Shown here: piece by piece, positions 380 through 10,213 of the stretch
How positions within the stretch are numbered: position 1 is the first letter of the stretch
Layout of the letters: each line of letters begins with the position of its first letter
DNA from: Balneolaceae bacterium
Lineage (GTDB): Bacteria > Bacteroidota > Rhodothermia > Balneolales > Balneolaceae
Direction of reading: 5' to 3'
NCBI GenBank assembly: GCA_003555185.1
Contig: PWFZ01000146.1
Span: 1-11,480 of the forward strand
DNA: 11,480 nucleotides
Notes under the pieces: generated by a model
The model's database searches: none
What the model was told of the DNA's origin: nothing
What the model saw: only the letters and a program-made list of their open reading frames with translations
Program-made: the position numbers and the translations under genes

Positions 380-417
380 CCCTTGCATTTATATCGAAAA
401 AGAGAGAGCTTTCTTGT

Positions 418-483
418 ATGAAATTTGACGCACACAATATTTTTTCTACTTCTCTTCGCCGTCGCCGCCGCTCAGGCGTGTGA
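418..483 (+). CDS. Arginine-rich leader peptide of the arg attenuator (21 aa)
   Basis: This is a short open reading frame from ATG (418-420) to TGA (481-483). The product begins MKFDAHNIF and carries five arginines in a row at residues 14-18, encoded CGC CGT CGC CGC CGC (457-471), then Ser-Gly-Val and stop. A purine run (396-408) sits about ten bases before the ATG and could help initiation. Directly downstream lie mutually exclusive antiterminator and terminator structures, then the gene for ornithine carbamoyltransferase, an arginine biosynthesis enzyme. This is the layout of leader peptides such as those of the his and trp operons, where clustered codons for the end product sense its charged tRNA. 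The peptide itself need have no function; its translation would be the sensor. Assignment rests on the codon run, the RNA structures and the downstream gene together. It is easily missed in annotation because of its size. Confidence 0.85.
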   Translation: MKFDAHNIFSTSLRRRRRSGV

Positions 484-522
484 CTTTAGTGTGTAATATC
501 TAAAAAGTTTTCACAACGCCTG
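473..522 (+). promoter_or_regulatory. Antiterminator helix of the arginine attenuator
   Basis: Positions 473-479 (CAGGCGT) pair perfectly with 516-522 (ACGCCTG). After one bulged base (515), 480-483 (GTGA) pairs with 511-514 (TCAC). After a three-T bulge (508-510), 484-487 (CTTT) pairs with 504-507 (AAAG). That gives 15 pairs closed by a 16-base loop. The helix consumes most of the 5' arm of the terminator, so the two cannot coexist. It also contains the leader stop codon, so a ribosome finishing the leader would cover its 5' half and favour termination. A ribosome stalled at the first Arg codons (from 457) would leave it free. A short competing 1:2 pairing is possible (CACAC 431-435 with GTGTG 478-482, or CGCC 466-469 with GGCG 475-478). 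Confidence 0.75.
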
Positions 523-553
523 CTTAATTCATTTTGAGCAGGCGTTTTTTTTT
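515..553 (+). terminator. Intrinsic terminator of the argF leader (attenuator)
   Basis: A perfect 10-bp stem, AACGCCTGCT (515-524) with AGCAGGCGTT (537-546), has a 12-base loop and an uninterrupted T run through 553. It sits after the Arg leader peptide and before the argF start. No gene ends immediately upstream on this strand except the leader peptide, so its likely role is conditional termination in front of argF rather than closing an operon. Confidence 0.9.
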
Positions 554-616
554 GCTTTCCACTTTTTTCAGATGGCAAAATCAAATTTCTACAACCCTCA
601 CAAAAATTATAGATCC

Positions 617-1588
617 ATGAACCATTTTTTAACCATTGGGGAATACAGCCCCGAAACCATCCAACACTTTATCGACGTCAGTGAGCAGCTACATAAGTCG
701 AAAGAACTAGTTCTTACTTCGAAAAACATAGCATTCATATTCGAAAAACCATCACTTCGAACCAAAGTAGGCACCGAAGCAGCCATTAATCAGTTAGGCG
801 GTAACGTCATTCATGTGGAATCGGACCTCGTTTTATCCAGCGGTAAAGCCGTTCCGTTTAGCTGCAGAGAATCACTTTACGACGCAATGAAAAACCTGTC
901 TCTTTGGTGTGATGCCGTTTTTGCCAGGGTCTACTCCCATCAAACACTGCAGAAAATGAAAGAGTATGGAAATATTCCGGTAATAAACGCGCTATGCGAT
1001 GATCATCATCCCATGCAGGCACTTGCGGATCTCTACACGCTTCAGCAAACATTCGGAAAGGATCAAAAACTCACCATTTCATTCATTGGTGACGCAAACA
1101 ATGTGTCATTTTCCTTAATCGAAATTGCGTTAAAGTTTGGTCATACCGTCCATTTTTCTGCACCGGAGAAATACTCCTGGCCTGATGAAACCCTGAATTA
1201 CTTCGCCCTTTTAGCAACGGAATACAGTGGTTTTTTTATGCAATTCAACGATCCGTTTGATGCCGTCTCCAATGCGGATGCTGTTTATACCGACACTTTT
1301 ATTTCTATGGGTGAAGAGCATCTGTACGAAGATAAAATCAACCATTTTGAACCTTATCAGATTAATGAAAAGCTTTTCAATGAAGCCGGAAAAGAAGCCG
1401 CTTTTATGCACTGTCTTCCTGCTCACCGTGGCGTGGAAGTAACGAACGAGGTAATTGATCATCCCAACTCTTTGGTTTATCAACAGGCTGAAAACCGAAT
1501 GGTGGTTTCGAAGGGTATTTTCGCATCGCTTCTTACGGGTGAGGCAAAGGAATTCAAAACAAATGGAGTATTAAGTGTCCCCTCTTGA
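617..1588 (+). CDS. argF: Ornithine carbamoyltransferase
   Basis: Cytoplasmic enzyme that transfers the carbamoyl group from carbamoyl phosphate to L-ornithine, giving citrulline. With numbering from ATG 617, the carbamoyl phosphate loop EKPSLRTK is at 43-50 (Lys replaces the usual final Arg), Arg104 lies in the FARVYSH segment, and HPMQALADL starts at 131 (the family has HPCQ or HPTQ). The ornithine-side motifs are D226-TFI-SMG (to 232) and HCLPAHRG from 265. These favour ornithine rather than N-acetyl- or N-succinylornithine as substrate. An in-frame ATG at 572 would add 15 residues. I prefer 617 because the protein then begins MNHFLTI as the family usually does, at 323 aa, and an A-rich stretch precedes it, whereas 572 lies just behind the terminator T tract. 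The last four codons and the stop come from a palindromic repeat. Expression is probably controlled by the arginine attenuator upstream; argG follows. Confidence 0.93.
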   Translation: MNHFLTIGEYSPETIQHFIDVSEQLHKSKELVLTSKNIAFIFEKPSLRTKVGTEAAINQLGGNVIHVESDLVLSSGKAVPFSCRESLYDAMKNLSLWCDAVFARVYSHQTLQKMKEYGNIPVINALCDDHHPMQALADLYTLQQTFGKDQKLTISFIGDANNVSFSLIEIALKFGHTVHFSAPEKYSWPDETLNYFALLATEYSGFFMQFNDPFDAVSNADAVYTDTFISMGEEHLYEDKINHFEPYQINEKLFNEAGKEAAFMHCLPAHRGVEVTNEVIDHPNSLVYQQAENRMVVSKGIFASLLTGEAKEFKTNGVLSVPS

Positions 1589-1766: not shown

Positions 1767-3035
1767 ATGAAAAATCAGACCACATATAAAAAAGTAGCAT
1801 CACACGAAGCGGAAAAAGGATCATTTAACACTTGTCTGTTGCTCTACTCCGGCGGACTCGATACCAGCATGATGCTGAAATGGATTCAAGAGGAGTATGA
1901 GTGCGACGTTATTGCACTCACTATTAATATTGGCCAGACCGCCGATAATTTGGACGCCATAAAACAAAAAGCTCTCAAATTGGGAGCAAAAGATGCCATT
2001 GTATATGATGCAAAGGAACAATTTGCCGAGCTTTGCACCGAAGCGGTAAAAGCCAATGCTGATTATCAGGGAGGCTATGCATTGGGATGTCCGCTGGGAA
2101 GAGTGATGATTTCACAGTTAGCCGCTCAGTTTGCGGCAGAGTTCGGCTGCGAAGTAATCGCTCACGGCTGCACTGGAAAAGGGAATGATCAGGTTCGGTT
2201 CGAAGGATACATCACCACGCTGAATCCGGATCTAAAAATTATCGCACCGGTTAGGGAGTGGAGCATGGGGCGTGACGAGCAGATTGCCTATGCCATTGAA
2301 AACGGAATTCCTGTTGATCAAACACAGAAAAGTCCCTATTCCTACGATGAAAATATGTGGGCAAATACCGGCGAAGGGGGTGAGATTGAAAATCCTGAGC
2401 TGATTCCCCCTATCGAAAAGATTCTGAAATGGGCGAACACTCCACAGCAGGCCCCTGATGAAGAGGAACTTGTGAAGATTGGATTTGAGAATGGTGATCC
2501 GGTTTCACTGAATGGAATTGAGTATGACAAAAAAGATCTGATTTTGTTGCTAAACGAAATCGGCGGCAAACACGCCGTTGGTGTTTTCAATCTGATTGAA
2601 GACCGAATTGTGGGTCTAAAAGTTAGAGGCGTTTATGAAAATCCGGCAGCTACTGTGCTAATTCAGGCACACAAAAACCTGGAGCAGCTTGTATCCACAA
2701 GAGAAGAGAATGAGCTGAAAGGATTTATGGATCAAAAGTGGGCATATCTCATCTATGGTGCCAAATATTTTGAACCGGTGATGGATAATATCAGAGCATT
2801 CATCAACGAACAGAACAAAAAAGTAACCGGAGAAGTGACACTGAAACTCTATAAAGGCAATTGTGATGTGGTTGCGCTGAAATCTCCCTATTCGCTGTTT
2901 GATGAGAACCTTGCTACATTTAATAAGTCAGCTGCATTTAACCAGAATGCCTCGGCCGGGTTTATTGAACTTTGGAATCTACCACAGAAAACAGCTTATC
3001 AGCTAAAGCATGCAGTGAAAAAGGAGGTTGTATAG
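1767..3035 (+). CDS. argG: Argininosuccinate synthase
   Basis: ATP-dependent ligase that joins citrulline and aspartate to make argininosuccinate (with AMP and PPi) in the cytoplasm, the penultimate step to arginine. The N-type ATP pyrophosphatase P-loop YSGGLDTS is at residues 27-34. The family signature HGCTGKGNDQVRFE is at 133-146 and binds nucleotide and aspartate. KSPYSYDENMW follows at 188-198. The C-terminal half keeps the family's PAATVLIQAH, TGEVTLKLYKGN and SPYSLFDENLATF segments. At 422 residues it is slightly longer than the usual 400 or so, mainly through a polar N-terminal extension of about 18 residues before the first beta strand. The ATG at 1767 is the only obvious start, with an A-rich but not Shine-Dalgarno upstream region. 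It lies 178 bases after argF across repeat DNA, so co-transcription is plausible but not certain. Confidence 0.96.
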   Translation: MKNQTTYKKVASHEAEKGSFNTCLLLYSGGLDTSMMLKWIQEEYECDVIALTINIGQTADNLDAIKQKALKLGAKDAIVYDAKEQFAELCTEAVKANADYQGGYALGCPLGRVMISQLAAQFAAEFGCEVIAHGCTGKGNDQVRFEGYITTLNPDLKIIAPVREWSMGRDEQIAYAIENGIPVDQTQKSPYSYDENMWANTGEGGEIENPELIPPIEKILKWANTPQQAPDEEELVKIGFENGDPVSLNGIEYDKKDLILLLNEIGGKHAVGVFNLIEDRIVGLKVRGVYENPAATVLIQAHKNLEQLVSTREENELKGFMDQKWAYLIYGAKYFEPVMDNIRAFINEQNKKVTGEVTLKLYKGNCDVVALKSPYSLFDENLATFNKSAAFNQNASAGFIELWNLPQKTAYQLKHAVKKEVV

Positions 3036-3253: not shown

Positions 3254-4558
3254 ATGACAAAAATCTGGCAAAAGAGCACAACCGATACACAGTCTGATAC
3301 CGCAAAAAAGGTAGAAACCTTCACGGTAGGTAATGATTACGCACTAGACCAAATACTGGTGCCCTACGACGTAAAAGCATCGAAAGTTCACGCGTCGGCA
3401 CTTCGGAAAGCCGGCATCTTAACTCAGGAAGAACTTCAAAAGTTGCATTCCGCTCTTGACGAAATTTTAAAAATCTGGAAAAAAGGAGATTTCGTAATTA
3501 CCGTGGAAGATGAGGATATGCACACGGCTATTGAAAATTATTTAATTGAGAAACTGGGTGATCTCGGTAAAAAAATTCATACGGCTCGCTCACGAAATGA
3601 CCAGGTGCTCACAGCGATGCGGCTTTATGAAAAAGAAAAGCTATCGGATATTTTAAAGAAGGCAAAAGAATGCGCAACTCTGCTTCTTAATTTTGCAGAA
3701 TCTTATAAAACAATGCCGATGCCGGGGTTTACCCACACCCGAAAAGCGATGCTCAGCAGTGTGGGACTTTGGGCTGGAGGTTTTGCTGAGTTGCTAATTC
3801 TACAAATTCACTCATCAACAGGAGTATCAACACTTATTAACAGGTCCCCGCTGGGCAGTGCCGCCGGTTTTGGAACAACCTTCGATATCGATCGCGATTT
3901 TGAAGCCATGGAACTTGGTTTTGAATCTCCTCTTATTTGCTCGACAACCTCACAATTATCCAGAGGGTTTACAGAGCTTCAGCTTGTTCAATTTCTATCT
4001 TCACTAACATCCATAACCAATCGGTTCGCCTCCGATGTGATACAGTACAGCAGTGAATCTTACCACTATTTTGACTTCGATGAATTAGTCTGTACCGGTT
4101 CATCCATTATGCCACAAAAGAAAAACCCTGACGTTGCTGAATTGATCCGGGGACATCACGCCGTTATAACCGGGCACGCTACAACATTGCAAATGTTAAC
4201 CACTAACCTAACAAGTGGGTATCACCGCGATTTACAGCTCTCCAAAGAGCATGTAGTAGATGCACTTGAAAAAACAGAGCAAGTGTTAAAATCAACTCAA
4301 TTACTGATTAAGCACATGGTGCCAAATAAAAAAGCACTCACAAATTCGTGCAGCAGTGAAATTTTTGCCGCAGAGGCTGCTTATGAACTGGTAAAACAGG
4401 AAGGGATGTCGTTCAGGGAGGCGTATCGAAAAGTAGCCACAGACCCGGTCTTATCGGACACACTTACAGCTCGGGAAGTACTGCAAAGGTGCTCACATAT
4501 CGGGTCTCCGGGAAATCCGGGAATAGACCGATTAAAACAACTGCTGAAAGAATTGTAA
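3254..4558 (+). CDS. argH: Argininosuccinate lyase
   Basis: Splits argininosuccinate into arginine and fumarate in the cytoplasm; active as a homotetramer in the aspartase/fumarase superfamily. Motifs in order: EDEDMHTAIE at 85-94 (family E-D-x-H-x-x-x-E), TARSRNDQ at 110-117, PGFTHTRKA at 157-165 with the conserved His161, the mobile-loop signature GSSIMPQKKNPD at 282-293 containing the catalytic serine, and YHRDLQLSKE at 323-332. The family usually has THLQ-A-QP where this protein has THTRKA, a variation that leaves the His intact. Length of 434 is slightly short of the usual 450-470 but both ends look complete: the N-terminus starts with the expected K-x-W and the C-terminus ends in an amphipathic helix. 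It is the third arg gene on the strand, 218 bases after argG across palindromic repeats. No strong terminator follows. Confidence 0.95.
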   Translation: MTKIWQKSTTDTQSDTAKKVETFTVGNDYALDQILVPYDVKASKVHASALRKAGILTQEELQKLHSALDEILKIWKKGDFVITVEDEDMHTAIENYLIEKLGDLGKKIHTARSRNDQVLTAMRLYEKEKLSDILKKAKECATLLLNFAESYKTMPMPGFTHTRKAMLSSVGLWAGGFAELLILQIHSSTGVSTLINRSPLGSAAGFGTTFDIDRDFEAMELGFESPLICSTTSQLSRGFTELQLVQFLSSLTSITNRFASDVIQYSSESYHYFDFDELVCTGSSIMPQKKNPDVAELIRGHHAVITGHATTLQMLTTNLTSGYHRDLQLSKEHVVDALEKTEQVLKSTQLLIKHMVPNKKALTNSCSSEIFAAEAAYELVKQEGMSFREAYRKVATDPVLSDTLTAREVLQRCSHIGSPGNPGIDRLKQLLKEL

Positions 4559-4782: not shown

Positions 4783-7700
4783 ATGAGCACAAAACGTTAC
4801 CTACAAATTTTCACTTCTGCCCTTTTTGGTATTTGCCTGATGATGAGCACAGCTTACGCTCAACAGACAGTTACCGGACAGGTGACAGATGTAAATAATG
4901 AGCCTCTTGTGGGCGCAACCGTAATAGTTTCAGGCACCGACCGTGGGGCTTCAACCGATGTAAATGGTGAATTTTCACTGCAAGCCTCTCCTGATGAGAC
5001 TTTGATAGTCCGATTCGTTGGGTATCAGAGTCAGGAGATCCTGGTTGGTGATCAAACTGAATTTAACATCACACTTAGAGTTGATGATCAACTTCTGGAT
5101 GATGTAGTTGTCATCGGATACGGTGTTCAGCAGCGGAGTGACCTTACCGGTTCAATAGCCAGCATATCCGGTGATCAGATTCAAAACCAACCCATTGCCA
5201 GCCTCGACGGAGCACTTCAGGGTCGGGCATCGGGAGTTTTTGTAAGTACACCTTCCGGTACTCCGGGCGCGGGAATAACCATGAATATTCGTGGGCAAAC
5301 GTCCATTTCAGGAAGTAGTGAGCCGCTTTATGTAATTGATGGCGTTCCTATTATCTCTGAAGATCTTTCAGGGTTATTTTCTGGCGGACAGGCAACGAAC
5401 TCACTTGCTGATTTGAATCCAAATGACATTGAGTCTATTGAGATTCTGAAAGATGCCTCCGCTACTGCTATTTATGGATCAAGAGGAGCAAATGGAGTCG
5501 TTTTGATTTCAACAAAACGTGGAGTTGCGGGTGAATCAACGATTGGGTTTAGCGCTTACACCGGTTTCCAGCAGGTAACCAATAAACTGGACATGCATTC
5601 ATCACAAGAATTCTTAGAGCTGATGAATGATGCTGCACGTCAGGATAACCGTGATCTTGGAACAAACTACTCCGATACACACGTATCTGATATCTGGGGT
5701 TTTGACCCCAACGATCCTGATCTGCAAAATACCGTTTGGTATGATGAGATTTTCCGGACCTCTCCTATTTCCAACTACGAGCTGAATGCATCCGGTGGTA
5801 CAGAAAACACACGTTACTTTACTTCGCTTTCATATTTCGATCAGGAAGGAACTCAGTTTGGAACAGGGTTTGAACGCATCAGTGGCCGAATAAACCTTGA
5901 CACGAAAATAAATGACTGGCTGGATTTCGGGACAAATCTTACCTTGAACCGAACTCTACAAGACCGTGTAATTAATGACAACTCTCTTTATGGCGTTGTA
6001 ATTAATACGCTTGCAGGTGACCCGTTAATGCCTGTTTATGAAGAAGATGGAAGCTATGCAGATCCGTTCAATTATTTTGGCTGGTGGATGCTTGACAACC
6101 CCCTACTCATTGCTAATGAATATCAACGATTCACAAACACAACTCGAGGTATAGGTACCATATTCGGTGTGGCCAACATCACCGATGAGTTAACCTTCCG
6201 GTCTTCACTCAACATTGACTATACAAGTCTTGAAGATGAGGCCTATACCCCGATCATTTCACGGGAATCTCAGAATGCGCAAAGAAACGGGTTCGGCAAC
6301 TTTGGAACCACTCAGGATTTTACATGGCTTGTTGAAAACTACCTGTCTTATGCCAACACATTCGGCGATCGCCACAATGTAAATGGTTTGGTAGGAACAT
6401 CTTTTCAGCAGTCTAACAGAGACTTCTCCTCGATTAATGCCCAGGGATTTCCAAGTGATCAATTCATCAAACTAAGCGTAGCTTCGCAGGTAACATCAGC
6501 TTCCACAGCTGGTACCAGCTGGGGTCTTGCATCCTACTTTTTCAGAGGTAACTACACATTTGACAACAGATATCTCTTTACCGTTACGGGCCGGGCAGAT
6601 GGCTCTTCACGGTTTGGTGAAAACTTCAGATATGGATTTTTCCCATCCGGTTCTTTTGCATGGAGGATGACAAATGAAAGCTTTATGCAGAATCAAACCA
6701 TCTTTTCTGAGCTTAAACCACGGATTAGTTACGGAATTACAGGCAACCAGGAAGGGATTGGAAACTTTGCCTCAAGAGGGCTCTTTGGCGTTTCCGACTA
6801 CCGTGCAACACCTAGCCTTGTTCCTACTCAACTTAGCAATGCCAACTTAACCTGGGAAAGCACAAAACAACTCGACATCGGAGTAGATATCGGCCTGTTT
6901 GATGACCGCATTAACATGAGCGCGGACTACTTTATAAAAAATACTGAAGACCTTTTGTTAAACAGACTTATCCCCGGGATTTCCGGTTTCTCCAGTGTAA
7001 CAGATAACATTGGGAGAGTGGAAAACAGAGGGTTTGAGTTTGATGTTCGTGGAGTTGTTTTAGCAGATTCAGATTTCTCCTGGACTTCAAGCTTCAATAT
7101 TTCTTTTATCCGGAATGAGGTTAAAGAACTCGAGGTGAACAATCAGGTTTTAAGTGATTCTCACATCCTTTCAGAAGGTCAGCCAATTGGCACTTTCTAT
7201 TTGATTGATCACGAAGGTGTAGATCCTGAAACAGGTAATATGCTTTGGATTGATGCAAATGATGACGGTGTAATTGATTCAGGTGACCGTATGATCGTAG
7301 GAAATGCACAACCTGACTTTTATGGTGGGTTTGGTAATTCTTTCTCCTATAGAGGTTTCGACATGAATGTATTATTCCAGTTCACATACGGAAACGACAT
7401 TTTCAACCATAGCCGTGCATCTTACGAAAATCTTGGCTGGAGCCGAATTGGAATTCCGGGAATATTTCCGCTTCCTGATGGCAACAACCACAGACTTGCA
7501 GATGACCGATGGATGGAGCCCGGTGATGTAACAGACATTCCAAGAGCCTCACTCACTAATCAAAACTGGAGAGAATACTCAACCAGATGGTTAGAAGATG
7601 GTTCCTACCTGCGATTAAAAACGTTAACTCTGGGTTATAATTTCTCCCCGGAATTCACACAGCGTTTAGGAATGAGAACACTTCGAATCTACACGCAAGG

Positions 7701-7845
7701 GCAAAACCTGTTAACGTTTACAAACTACACCGGCCTGGATCCTGAAGTTAATCAGAACGCCAGAAACCCACTCCTTGCAGGTTCCGACTTTGGTACCCTG
7801 CCGCAGTCGAGAACAATCTCCTTCGGCATCAACTTGGAATTTTAA
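4783..7845 (+). CDS. SusC/RagA-family TonB-dependent outer membrane transporter
   Basis: Outer membrane channel that imports a SusD-bound oligosaccharide or peptide, energised by TonB. A signal peptide (positive MSTKR, hydrophobic 8-20) ends with AYA, cleaved before Gln27. A carboxypeptidase-like regulatory beta-sandwich spans about 29-103 (VTGQVTDVNNEPLVGATV start). The TonB box/hinge DDVVVIGYG is at 106-114, followed by the plug. The SusC-specific signature from NPNDIESIEILKDASATAIY to STKRG covers 212-247. The remainder is beta-barrel and ends in the terminal strand SFGINLEF with a final Phe, as outer membrane barrels do. D824-A-N-D-D-G-V-I-D-S-G-D835 is an EF-hand-like acidic loop common in SusC proteins, possibly calcium-binding. 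At 1020 residues the length is typical. The susD gene starts 12 bases downstream, so the two form one transcription unit. The substrate cannot be read from the sequence. Confidence 0.95.
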   Translation: MSTKRYLQIFTSALFGICLMMSTAYAQQTVTGQVTDVNNEPLVGATVIVSGTDRGASTDVNGEFSLQASPDETLIVRFVGYQSQEILVGDQTEFNITLRVDDQLLDDVVVIGYGVQQRSDLTGSIASISGDQIQNQPIASLDGALQGRASGVFVSTPSGTPGAGITMNIRGQTSISGSSEPLYVIDGVPIISEDLSGLFSGGQATNSLADLNPNDIESIEILKDASATAIYGSRGANGVVLISTKRGVAGESTIGFSAYTGFQQVTNKLDMHSSQEFLELMNDAARQDNRDLGTNYSDTHVSDIWGFDPNDPDLQNTVWYDEIFRTSPISNYELNASGGTENTRYFTSLSYFDQEGTQFGTGFERISGRINLDTKINDWLDFGTNLTLNRTLQDRVINDNSLYGVVINTLAGDPLMPVYEEDGSYADPFNYFGWWMLDNPLLIANEYQRFTNTTRGIGTIFGVANITDELTFRSSLNIDYTSLEDEAYTPIISRESQNAQRNGFGNFGTTQDFTWLVENYLSYANTFGDRHNVNGLVGTSFQQSNRDFSSINAQGFPSDQFIKLSVASQVTSASTAGTSWGLASYFFRGNYTFDNRYLFTVTGRADGSSRFGENFRYGFFPSGSFAWRMTNESFMQNQTIFSELKPRISYGITGNQEGIGNFASRGLFGVSDYRATPSLVPTQLSNANLTWESTKQLDIGVDIGLFDDRINMSADYFIKNTEDLLLNRLIPGISGFSSVTDNIGRVENRGFEFDVRGVVLADSDFSWTSSFNISFIRNEVKELEVNNQVLSDSHILSEGQPIGTFYLIDHEGVDPETGNMLWIDANDDGVIDSGDRMIVGNAQPDFYGGFGNSFSYRGFDMNVLFQFTYGNDIFNHSRASYENLGWSRIGIPGIFPLPDGNNHRLADDRWMEPGDVTDIPRASLTNQNWREYSTRWLEDGSYLRLKTLTLGYNFSPEFTQRLGMRTLRIYTQGQNLLTFTNYTGLDPEVNQNARNPLLAGSDFGTLPQSRTISFGINLEF

Positions 7846-7857
7846 AAAACAGGAACC

Positions 7858-9213
7858 ATGAAAAAACTATCAATTACACTACTTTTTACAGCACTCTTCG
7901 TTGCGTTATCATCATGCGACGTTTTGGACACAGAACCGGAAACATCACTTGACCCAAGTGCTGCTTTGGTGGATGGAGCATCTGCTCAGGCCGTTCTTTT
8001 GGGAGCCTACTCAAGGATGCAGGTTGGCTCTTATTATGGTATAGAATACACACTGAACAATGATCTCATTGCTGATAACGCACGCTATCAGGGATTTTTC
8101 GACTCCCAGCTAGAGCTCGATTCAGGAAGTGTACCTATAAGTAATTTATGGATCGGAAATGCGTGGGTAAGTATTTACAGTGTTGTAAATATTGCCAATC
8201 AACTTATTGATGGCGTTCCCACTATAGATGATGAGACGTTTGCCACAAGAGATCGAGTTCTTGGCGAAGCACATGCCATTCGTGCGTTAGCTTACTTTGA
8301 TCTGCTTAGAGTCTTTGGTGAACATTTCGACACAGGTTCAAGTTATGGAATGCCCTTGCTGCTGGAGCCAATCGAAAATAATGACTTCAACCTTATACCT
8401 GACCTTGCCAGAAGTTCTGTAGCTGACACCTATAATCAAATCGTAAGCGACCTGGATACAGCACTTCAGCTTATGGGCGAAGGCTATGTAGATAACACAC
8501 AACTAAGCTACTGGTCTACACTTGCTCTCCGGGCACGGGTTAACCTTTACAGACAGGATTACGCCGCTGCTTTTGATGATGCTGACGAAGTTATAAATTC
8601 AGGGCCTGCTGTTCTGGAAGATGATCTCGATAATGTTTACCTGACTACAGGCACATCTTCAGAATCCATTTTCGATCTTGTGTTCAGCGACCAGGATCAA
8701 AGCGCTTACTACACATTTGCTTATCAGCGCGATGAGTACAACGTAGATCCATCACTGACAGAAGCCTTCGAAGATGGCGATGCCAGAAGGAACTACATTG
8801 AATTTGTAAGAGGAAGCGATAGGCCTGTAAAGTGGTCTGACCCTGATAATGCCAATAACGCTAAAATCTTACGACTCGCAGAAATGTATTTGATCCGATC
8901 GGAGGCAGCCGTTTATCGGGAAGCTACTCCTGCACCGGCTCTTGGAGCGGATGACATCAACGTTATTCGAAACCGTGCCGGCCTTGGAGATGCAGGACCA
9001 TTTACCACCGAAGAAGAATACATAGACGCCCTTTTACAGGAACGACGTATTGAACTGAATTACGAAGGACATCGATTCTTCGATCTCGTTCGTTATGACA
9101 GGGTTGGAGACGTATTGGGCAGAGATGATTTCCGGAAAGTTCTTCCTATACCAAGAGATGAGCTTTTAGCTTCTGATAATCTTGAGCAAAATCCAAACTA
9201 TCCTCTTCCTTAA
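7858..9213 (+). CDS. SusD/RagB-family substrate-binding surface lipoprotein
   Basis: Lid protein that sits on the SusC barrel at the cell surface and captures substrate. The signal peptide MKKLSITLLFTALFVALSSC ends in a lipobox with lipidated Cys20; the following DVLDTEPETS is the usual acidic linker. The alpha-helical TPR-like core includes RALAYFDLLRVFG at 142-154. The family's C-terminal signatures are present: LAEMYLIRSEA, then ERRIELNYEGHRFFDLVR at 395-412, and an IPRDEL..NLEQNPNY ending. At 451 residues it is a little shorter than most SusD proteins (480-600), suggesting compact loops over the binding site. It follows susC by 12 bases and is closed by a strong terminator. No glycoside hydrolase, sulfatase, peptidase or regulator is linked within the window, so a carbohydrate substrate is only the default guess. 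Confidence 0.95.
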   Translation: MKKLSITLLFTALFVALSSCDVLDTEPETSLDPSAALVDGASAQAVLLGAYSRMQVGSYYGIEYTLNNDLIADNARYQGFFDSQLELDSGSVPISNLWIGNAWVSIYSVVNIANQLIDGVPTIDDETFATRDRVLGEAHAIRALAYFDLLRVFGEHFDTGSSYGMPLLLEPIENNDFNLIPDLARSSVADTYNQIVSDLDTALQLMGEGYVDNTQLSYWSTLALRARVNLYRQDYAAAFDDADEVINSGPAVLEDDLDNVYLTTGTSSESIFDLVFSDQDQSAYYTFAYQRDEYNVDPSLTEAFEDGDARRNYIEFVRGSDRPVKWSDPDNANNAKILRLAEMYLIRSEAAVYREATPAPALGADDINVIRNRAGLGDAGPFTTEEEYIDALLQERRIELNYEGHRFFDLVRYDRVGDVLGRDDFRKVLPIPRDELLASDNLEQNPNYPLP

Positions 9214-9313: not shown

Positions 9314-10213
9314 ATGAAATCACATCTCTTTCTTCTTTTGATCGTTGCATTACCATTATTTGTTTCATGTTCCTCACAACCCCAGACTTTCGATGAGCTT
9401 ACATCAAACATTGAAGAATTCCTTGAAAATGAAGAAGGTACTTTTGCAGTGGCTTTTAAAGACCTGAATAATCCTGATAATGTATTTTATCTGAATGCCG
9501 ACACTCTATTCCACGCGGCCAGTACCATGAAAACTCCGGTAATGATTGAAGTATTCAAACGCATCGAAGCAGATCAGTTTTCTATTTACGACTCTATCAC
9601 CGTAAAAAATGAGTTCACAAGTATTGTTGATGGATCAACGTTTGAAATTGATATCCAGGATGATAGTGATGACCCCATTGAGCACATGGTTGGAGAAAAA
9701 GTGACACTGTACGATCTCGTTCACGCCATGATTACCTACAGCAGTAATATTGCTACAAACATTTTAATTGAAATGGTTGGTGCCGAAGAAACCACTCAAA
9801 CCATGAGAGATATGGGCGCCGAAAACATTCATGTACTTCGAGGTTTATATGATATGAAAGCGTTTGATCAAGGCCTGAGTAACCGTACCACAGCTCGTGA
9901 TCTTGCCATCATTTTTGAAAATCTTGCCCAACACAAGTATCTGACCCAAGAGTCCAACGAAATGATGATCGATATTTTAATGGATCAATATTATCTCGAC
10001 GTAATCCCCCGAAACCTGCCGGATAACTTAATCGTTGCTAATAAAACCGGATCAATATCCGGTGTGGAGCACGATTCAGCTATTGTATACCTACAGGATG
10101 GACGGTCGTATGTATTAATATTTCTATCAAAAGATCTCCCTGATGATGAACGCGGTCGCGAAATTGGTGCTTCTGTTTCTGAAATGATTTACGATTACTA
10201 CGTTGCAAACTAA
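9314..10213 (+). CDS. Class A beta-lactamase-fold serine hydrolase, lipoprotein
   Basis: Envelope protein of the penicillin-binding/beta-lactamase superfamily. A signal sequence ends in LFVSC with predicted lipidated Cys19, so it is probably anchored to a membrane. The active-site serine motif is S70-T-M-K73, the second motif S143-S-N145 (SxN), and the third K244-T-G246, in the order and spacing of class A enzymes. The omega loop is unusual. Between Arg176 and the T-T-A-R-D helix start at 192-196 there is no E-x-x-L-N, so the deacylating glutamate (Glu166 in Ambler numbering) is not recognisable. I infer that it may bind or slowly hydrolyse beta-lactams, or instead be a D,D-peptidase-like or other serine hydrolase, rather than an efficient beta-lactamase. 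It lies 37 bases behind the susCD terminator and so needs its own promoter, which I could not identify. The ATG at 9314 is well placed for the signal peptide. Confidence 0.85.
   Translation: MKSHLFLLLIVALPLFVSCSSQPQTFDELTSNIEEFLENEEGTFAVAFKDLNNPDNVFYLNADTLFHAASTMKTPVMIEVFKRIEADQFSIYDSITVKNEFTSIVDGSTFEIDIQDDSDDPIEHMVGEKVTLYDLVHAMITYSSNIATNILIEMVGAEETTQTMRDMGAENIHVLRGLYDMKAFDQGLSNRTTARDLAIIFENLAQHKYLTQESNEMMIDILMDQYYLDVIPRNLPDNLIVANKTGSISGVEHDSAIVYLQDGRSYVLIFLSKDLPDDERGREIGASVSEMIYDYYVAN

Follow-up and report, generated by a model that had tools for sequence, protein, structure and literature searches.

The window analysed here is the whole 11,480-nucleotide stretch of contig PWFZ01000146.1 from a Balneolaceae bacterium, one contig of an assembly (GCA_003555185.1) of 2.66 Mb and 74.62% completeness. 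Ahead of argF it carries what we read as a ribosome-mediated attenuator of transcription; charged Arg-tRNA would be the sensed signal, and argF-argG-argH, perhaps together with the susC-susD pair behind them, the genes under control (Table 1). We assign this reading, which was reached from sequence comparison, a probability of about 0.9. On those features that a sequence can test, the window fits a classical attenuator, including a mutually exclusive antiterminator and intrinsic terminator that have an arm in common. A first-pass annotation of this DNA had proposed an arginine attenuator at this place, and the leaders and antiterminators of related genomes, together with co-variation across genera, speak for that proposal. 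To it we add a protector hairpin (helix 1:2), a long-range helix (0:2'), the prediction that the leader starts with almost no untranslated bases, and the distribution of the system among relatives. Genomes are labeled G and loci L, each with a number; the family of the window is f1, and its sister families are f2 and f5.

The switch would operate in the following way. RNA polymerase would start at or a few bases from the ATG of the leader open reading frame (ORF), and a ribosome would load on the nearly leaderless messenger RNA (mRNA). When arginine is plentiful, the ribosome would pass the five Arg codons and reach the TGA at 481-483, covering segments 1 and 2; segment 3 would then be free, and the 3:4 terminator would halt transcription. 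When Arg-tRNA is short, the ribosome would stall in the Arg run and cover only segment 1, segment 2 would pair with segment 3, the terminator would be blocked, and argFGH would be transcribed. If the leader is not translated at all, helices 0:2' and 1:2 would hold segment 2, and termination would be the default outcome.

The sensing elements of the window can be read directly from its sequence, and the 21-codon ORF with five consecutive Arg codons at 457-471 that had been claimed is indeed there. Such an ORF is rarely produced by chance: dinucleotide shuffles of positions 300-571 gave a short ORF with five consecutive Arg codons once in 4000 trials, with four in 2 of 4000 and with three in 36 of 4000. 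The claimed overlap of the leader stop with the antiterminator was also found, since TGA 481-483 falls inside 473-487 and is so placed, as a matter of geometry only, that a ribosome there could mask the antiterminator arm. The gene downstream makes an arginine precursor, as predicted, being identified as argF by TIGR00658 and followed by argG and argH. The coordinates given for the terminator (515-553) and its nine-T tract proved right, its stem being scored here as 13 pairs. The antiterminator, said to have an arm in common with it, folds at -14.7 kcal/mol, with 2 of 200 shuffles equally good. The fold of the whole region 457-553 has a z score of -5.8 (0 of 200 shuffles equally good), and the minimum free energy (MFE) structure of the window contains the full 1:2 protector helix, with a presumed effect on termination. 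A scan of the window with Rfam at gathering score gave no match, the T-box family included. A known Rfam leader family was likewise set aside, searches to an E value of 10 having given no credible family; the closest amino acid leader was Phe_leader, at 23.7 bits against a threshold of 55.

The distribution of the leader among relatives provides the first line of comparative evidence. Counting argF relatives at E values up to 1e-30, we found window-type argF in 37 of the 128 genomes of the order (28 of 92 in f1, 8 in f2 and 1 in f5). Of the 28 family genomes, 26 had a readable upstream region, the other two (G052 and G067) stopping at a contig edge; G053 is split, its leader closing one contig and argF opening another. 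The upstream region was also readable in 8 of the 9 sister-family genomes, the contig of G094 beginning 40 bases before the argF match. All 34 testable genomes have an Arg-rich leader ORF followed by a terminator hairpin, and 31 of these also have a clear antiterminator. For conservation of the Arg run upstream of argF, which the first-pass annotation had put forward as a check, the outcome is an Arg-rich leader in every testable relative, the weakest leader being that of G099 (ending RRSLFRV), the one Arg-poorer case among the eight of the sister families. Four or five consecutive Arg codons occur in 25/25 family leaders. Leaders end RRRRRSGV in the genus of the window, most of those in the largest genus end RRRRPxGV/A, and other endings are RRRRPYGRVR, ERRRRPKGRNT, RRRRP, RRRPIGR, RRRRPRA and RRRCRTG. 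The string CGC CGT CGC CGC lies within the Arg run of 22 of the 25 family leaders, as would be expected if the same bases also serve pairing.

A second line of evidence comes from the helices. The antiterminator was evaluated by folding from the 1:2 loop to the terminator loop, omitting segment 1 and the 3' arm of the terminator. Values of z ranged from -2.45 to -5.80 in the 25 family cores, with at most 3 of 200 shuffles equally good, and further leaders gave -3.85 (G053), -3.32 (G043) and -2.54 to -4.70 (five sister-family leaders). The terminator, a strong stem with 6-10 T, is present in the MFE structure of each of the 25 family cores, and the full 1:2 protector in that of 19 (the window and 18 others). 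Cognate 2:3 duplexes of 23 sequences gave -18.0 kcal/mol against -15.7 kcal/mol for permuted partners, and none of 10000 permutations was as good. In L098 and L099 segment 2 is entirely different (GGGCGAAATACTTGAT), and segment 3 is changed to match it. Among 21 aligned sequences, 7 of the 12 terminator pairs counted have changes on both sides, 95.2% of the cells of helix 1:2 are paired, and 1:2 and the terminator jointly have 89.7% of cells paired compared to 28-54% with slid partners. L074, with a core equal to that of the window, and L082, which is close to L080, were omitted from this alignment (A2) and from the 2:3 and 0:2' permutations; L098 and L099, misaligned by MAFFT, were excluded from A2 and from the covariance model described below. 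One set of 71 loci contributed L003 only, which is the same locus as L077.

Helix 0:2' joins leader codons about 4-8 to bases just 3' of the leader stop, in the antiterminator loop. Its sequence changes from locus to locus while the pairing is kept, as in ACACAGC/GCUGUGU (L077), ACACAGAG/CUCUGUGU (L080), GAACUACAC/GUGUAGUUU (L097, with one G-U) and AUCAAGUA/UACUUGAU (L098). A fixed-column count for this helix was dropped: the pairing segments of different genera fall in different columns of alignment A3, and duplex permutation and a scan were therefore used instead. True partners in 25 family sequences scored -12.5 against -10.0 for permuted partners, with 0 of 20000 permutations as good, and within the largest genus (17 sequences) 39 of 20000 were as good. 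The scan of 24 leaders, which compared the stretch from the leader ATG to +48 with segment 2 and up to about 60 bases beyond and cannot register invariant helices, revealed a strong peak at 0:2' (z -7.3) and none elsewhere. In folds of the full leader, 1:2 lies inside 0:2' for 24 of the 25 sequences of the family, L127 pairing a later stretch; the fold of L096 ended before its terminator. The role of 0:2' would be the one proposed above, that of making termination the default in a leader without translation.

The predicted start of the leader RNA would link the switch to leaderless initiation. In 54 of 56 distinct upstream sequences, which represent both arg leader types, a TTG precedes the start codon of the leader by 35-37 bases; four f2/f5 rows without TTG (L134, L135, L136 and L139) were omitted from the 56, and with them the count is 54 of at most 60. 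This spacing occurs in 24 of the 25 type I leaders of the family. A profile of the 56 upstream sequences places the best fit of a TAnnTTT-like box 12 bases before the leader start. In Flavobacterium, a TAnnTTTG box covers positions -12 to -5 relative to the start site (PMC9723704), and TTTG near -33 has been described in Bacteroides fragilis (PMC7366714). Since the boxes of the leaders stand at distances resembling these, the RNA is expected to start at or near the leader ATG, and we predict that it begins at or within a few bases of it, with leaderless translation. Leaderless mRNAs are rare in both organisms (5.5% in Flavobacterium, PMC9723704; in B. fragilis about 3.7% of 5' untranslated regions are shorter than 10 bases, PMC7366714). 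A sigma-70 promoter scan was set aside as unsuited to the lineage.

Several observations weigh against the attenuator or against the generality of its parts. In three leaders from the sister families, all of the RRRCRTG type (L135, L136 and L139), the antiterminator has z scores of only -0.83 to -1.58, with 40, 16 and 14 of 200 shuffles as good. Alternative pairing, another check put forward by the first-pass annotation, stands in 31 of 34 relatives and is not convincing in these three. In six family cores (L081, L090, L092, L094, L098 and L099) the MFE structure has a short 1:2 hairpin and part of 2:3, with the terminator formed. The compensatory change that the annotation had looked to holds across genera for the 2:3 partners and in the terminator; within genera, cognate 2:3 duplexes have no advantage over non-cognate ones. 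A single cognate duplex of the 23 is better than all pairings with other genera, and the permutation tests ignore relatedness. Helix 1:2 is without a double compensatory change and 6 of its 10 pairs are invariant, so its support consists of energy and conservation. Helix 0:2' is weak in L127 and in most sister-family leaders, being clear by eye in L133 alone among eight. Four of the 8 sister-family leaders lack the predicted promoter spacing, as does L099. Finally, a terminator scan of positions 1-2500 gave 2 sites where 2.1 were expected by chance, and it is conservation that makes the case.

Three other explanations have to be weighed. The one that survives best, and which we still consider improbable, is an arrest peptide, for which the fungal arginine attenuator peptide is the model: the nascent Arg-rich chain would itself sense free arginine inside the ribosome and stall at its C-terminus, masking segment 2 and causing termination. 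A stall at the C-terminus would yield the same regulatory sign, and the terminal RRRR-P-x-G-V/A is well kept in the largest genus. However, the residues around the Arg run differ by genus (SGV, PxGV, PxGA, RVR, RNT, CLLGM, P directly before the stop, PRA and RCRTG), PxG follows from the hairpin CGCCC-NNN-GGGCG, and earlier residues follow 0:2' pairing. We give less credence to a leader that acts chiefly through mRNA decay or Rho termination, like that of Salmonella speF, with the hairpin at 515-546 in a minor role. Leaders with Arg codons can work in this manner (PMC6386406), and a second class of Arg leaders described below has no clear intrinsic terminator, but in all 25 family cores a strong stem is followed by 6-10 T, and the arm of this stem is also used by an antiterminator. 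Least credible is a terminator that ends an upstream transcript or insulates argF, with no sensor and an incidental Arg ORF; the terminator scan, with no more sites than shuffles, would suit it, but Arg-rich ORF and terminator occur in the same order in 34/34 testable genomes of three families, with the antiterminator clear in 31 and pairing partners that co-vary.

Arginine synthesis is a classic example of a pathway controlled by the ArgR protein. The ArgR profile PF01316 was detected in 0 of 92 family genomes, including 0 of 66 of good quality (the source genome being 74.62% complete), and in 2 of the 244 genomes of the class, both outside the order; as a control, the search was positive in 9 of 14 known genomes. 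The attenuator itself was traced with a covariance model (R1) built from 21 sequences, which it matches by construction. At 50 bits or more, R1 has 25 matches in the family: 23 before argF, one at the contig end of G053 and one in G043 (63.3 bits). The only such match outside the family lies before argF in G098 (51.6 bits), and none of the weak matches at four inspected loci (L129-L132), judged by ORF starts, lies before arginine genes.

The G043 match (L143, contig G043:C17; also L127) has a leader ending RRRRCLLGM with antiterminator and terminator intact. Immediately downstream come susC and susD, with 79% and 71% identity to their counterparts behind argH in the window, followed by a serine hydrolase of the same kind as that of the window. 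In this genome (97% complete) there is neither a close argF nor an argH over cut-off; argG was not searched for. The simplest reading, for this one genome, is that argFGH was lost and the switch was left on susCD. This suggests an arginine-rich substrate for import by susCD. G076, in the genus of the window, has the same argFGH-susCD-hydrolase order as the window, and G069 and G066 have argFGH without adjacent susCD. Judging from G043 and G076, susCD of the window may perhaps belong to the same regulated unit as argFGH. No argH over cut-off was found in G042, G043, G048 and G056, and G057 has a fragment below cut-off; G042 and G043, both 97% complete, are therefore probable arginine auxotrophs. 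As a separate observation, relatives of the serine hydrolase of the window lie behind argH or susCD in G043, G076, G069 and G066.

Other genera of the family have a different arg operon, which from its ORF starts we take to consist of an acetyltransferase gene, argG, argC, argD, an argF-like gene and argB. Its first gene, counted at E values up to 1e-20, is present in 42 of 92 family genomes, and none of these 42 has window-type argF. In 30/30 loci examined (L153-L182; also L144-L149) the first gene is preceded by a short ORF that contains four or more Arg codons; 13 of the 30 leaders end RIPRRR, most others end in a similar Arg run, and G014 has one too. These leaders start 161-225 bases before the first gene (six loci), and 29 of 30 have TTG at -35 or -36. 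Codons of these leaders form a helix with a distal segment close to the start of the gene (-11.1 against -9.8; 24 of 20000 permutations as good; 29 sequences), and inspection of the loci by eye found no strong terminator. We advance only tentatively, at somewhat less than even odds, the broader proposal that the whole order controls arginine by leaderless Arg leaders that replace ArgR. There would be two separately built switches on mutually exclusive types of arg operon, the first being a movable four-helix device whose early leader codons also serve as an RNA arm pairing 3' of the stop codon, and which in G043 would now drive a SusCD importer predicted for arginine-rich peptides.

Attenuators of the trp, his and leu type combine a leader peptide with regulatory codons, alternative helices 1:2, 2:3 and 3:4, and an intrinsic terminator ahead of the cognate biosynthetic operon. 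The window has the same layout of leader run, alternative helices and terminator, but differs in sensing arginine, in its predicted leaderless start, in the extra helix 0:2' and in belonging to a family without detected ArgR. Given arginine specificity in a synthesis operon together with these other features, we regard it as a new variation on the classical attenuator. Among known systems, the Salmonella speF leader orf34 is also a short ORF in which ribosomes pause at adjacent Arg codons and thereby sense arginine supply; there, however, two consecutive Arg codons act on Rho, RNase G and speF translation, for a polyamine gene and not an arginine synthesis operon (PMC6386406). The carAB leader of Pseudomonas aeruginosa (Kwon et al. 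1994, per PMC4997734) likewise places a leader peptide before arginine-precursor genes, with attenuation proposed and a title that says there is no untranslated region, but attenuation was attributed to pyrimidines, arginine control was transcriptional, and both operon and lineage are different. The mycobacterial polycysteine ORFs (Canestrari et al. 2020, per PMC13236596) are leaderless, short and endowed with a regulatory-codon run that attenuates an amino acid operon; unlike the window, they respond to cysteine, are termed translation attenuation and come from Actinobacteria. Closer in lineage, Flavobacterium psychrophilum, another member of the Bacteroidetes, has strong clues of leader-peptide attenuation before amino acid biosynthesis operons, though the accessible part of that report names no arginine operon (PMC9723704). 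A 2010 report of leader peptide systems in Firmicutes knew of earlier ones, ermC apart, only in Proteobacteria and Actinobacteria (PMC2965389, accessible part), and a study of Actinobacteria, in the part available, reports no RNA structures conserved upstream of arginine operons (PMC1262725). The literature that could be consulted, mostly without subscription papers and in part, showed no comparable arginine biosynthetic attenuator, which is weak evidence of absence. If our reading is correct, a family without detectable ArgR appears to sense arginine by translating a few Arg codons, with an intrinsic terminator as output. Leader-peptide attenuation would then also cover arginine biosynthesis, in a lineage related to Bacteroidota, and would be tied to leaderless initiation. 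The dozens of natural variants, one of them relocated to a new operon, would be useful for tests of how switches evolve.

Table 1. Features of the arginine leader region and of the genes downstream, in window coordinates
Feature	Position	Strand	Basis
Leader ORF, MKFDAHNIFSTSLRRRRRSGV and stop	418..483	+	read from sequence, 21 codons + TGA; related leaders in relatives
Five consecutive Arg codons, CGC CGT CGC CGC CGC	457..471	+	read from sequence; conserved in family leaders
Segment 0, GCACAC, codons 5-6, partner 489-494	430..435	+	full-leader fold, coupled changes in family, scan
Segment 1, Arg codons, partner 475-478 + 480-484 (protector hairpin 1:2)	461..469	+	MFE of 457-553; comparison of 21 sequences
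Segment 2, antiterminator 5' arm, overlapping leader stop codon	473..487	+	window fold, family folds, permutation
Segment 2', GTGTGT, partner of segment 0	489..494	+	full-leader fold, permutation, scan
Segment 3, antiterminator 3' arm, common with terminator 5' arm	504..522	+	window fold, family folds, permutation
Intrinsic terminator, stem 515-527/534-546 (13 pairs), nine T at 545-553	515..553	+	terminator scan, MFE, both-side changes
TTG of predicted -33 promoter element (TTGCAT)	383..385	+	TTG 35-37 bases before leader start codon in relatives
Predicted -7 box GAGCTTTC, consensus TAnnTTTG, 12 to 5 bases before leader ATG	406..413	+	profile of 56 upstreams; 4/6 consensus bases here
argF, ornithine carbamoyltransferase	572..1588	+	TIGR00658, 294.8 bits (cut-off 280.85)
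argG, argininosuccinate synthase	1767..3035	+	TIGR00032, 451.4 bits (cut-off 268.2)
argH, argininosuccinate lyase	3254..4558	+	TIGR00838, 295.6 bits (cut-off 279.5)
susC-susD pair downstream of argH	4783..9213	+	profile scan of window; same order in G076

The genes of the window run in the order argF, argG, argH, susC, susD, a serine hydrolase gene and a rhodanese-like gene. The true start of argF is probably at 617 and not at 572, because its homologues mostly begin MNHLLTIG, MKHLLTIG or similar. The hydrolase (9314-10213) resembles class A beta-lactamases, its top NCBIfam match scoring 108.4 bits against a cut-off of 200. The interval between argF and argG (1579-1725) contains two short GC-rich inverted repeats, CCCCTCTTGAAGGGGG near 1579 and CCCCCTTCAAAGGGGG, with a T-tract, at 1710. 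Elsewhere in the family, argF and its leader occur twice in one assembly, as nearly identical copies on contigs G038:C2 and G038:C17.
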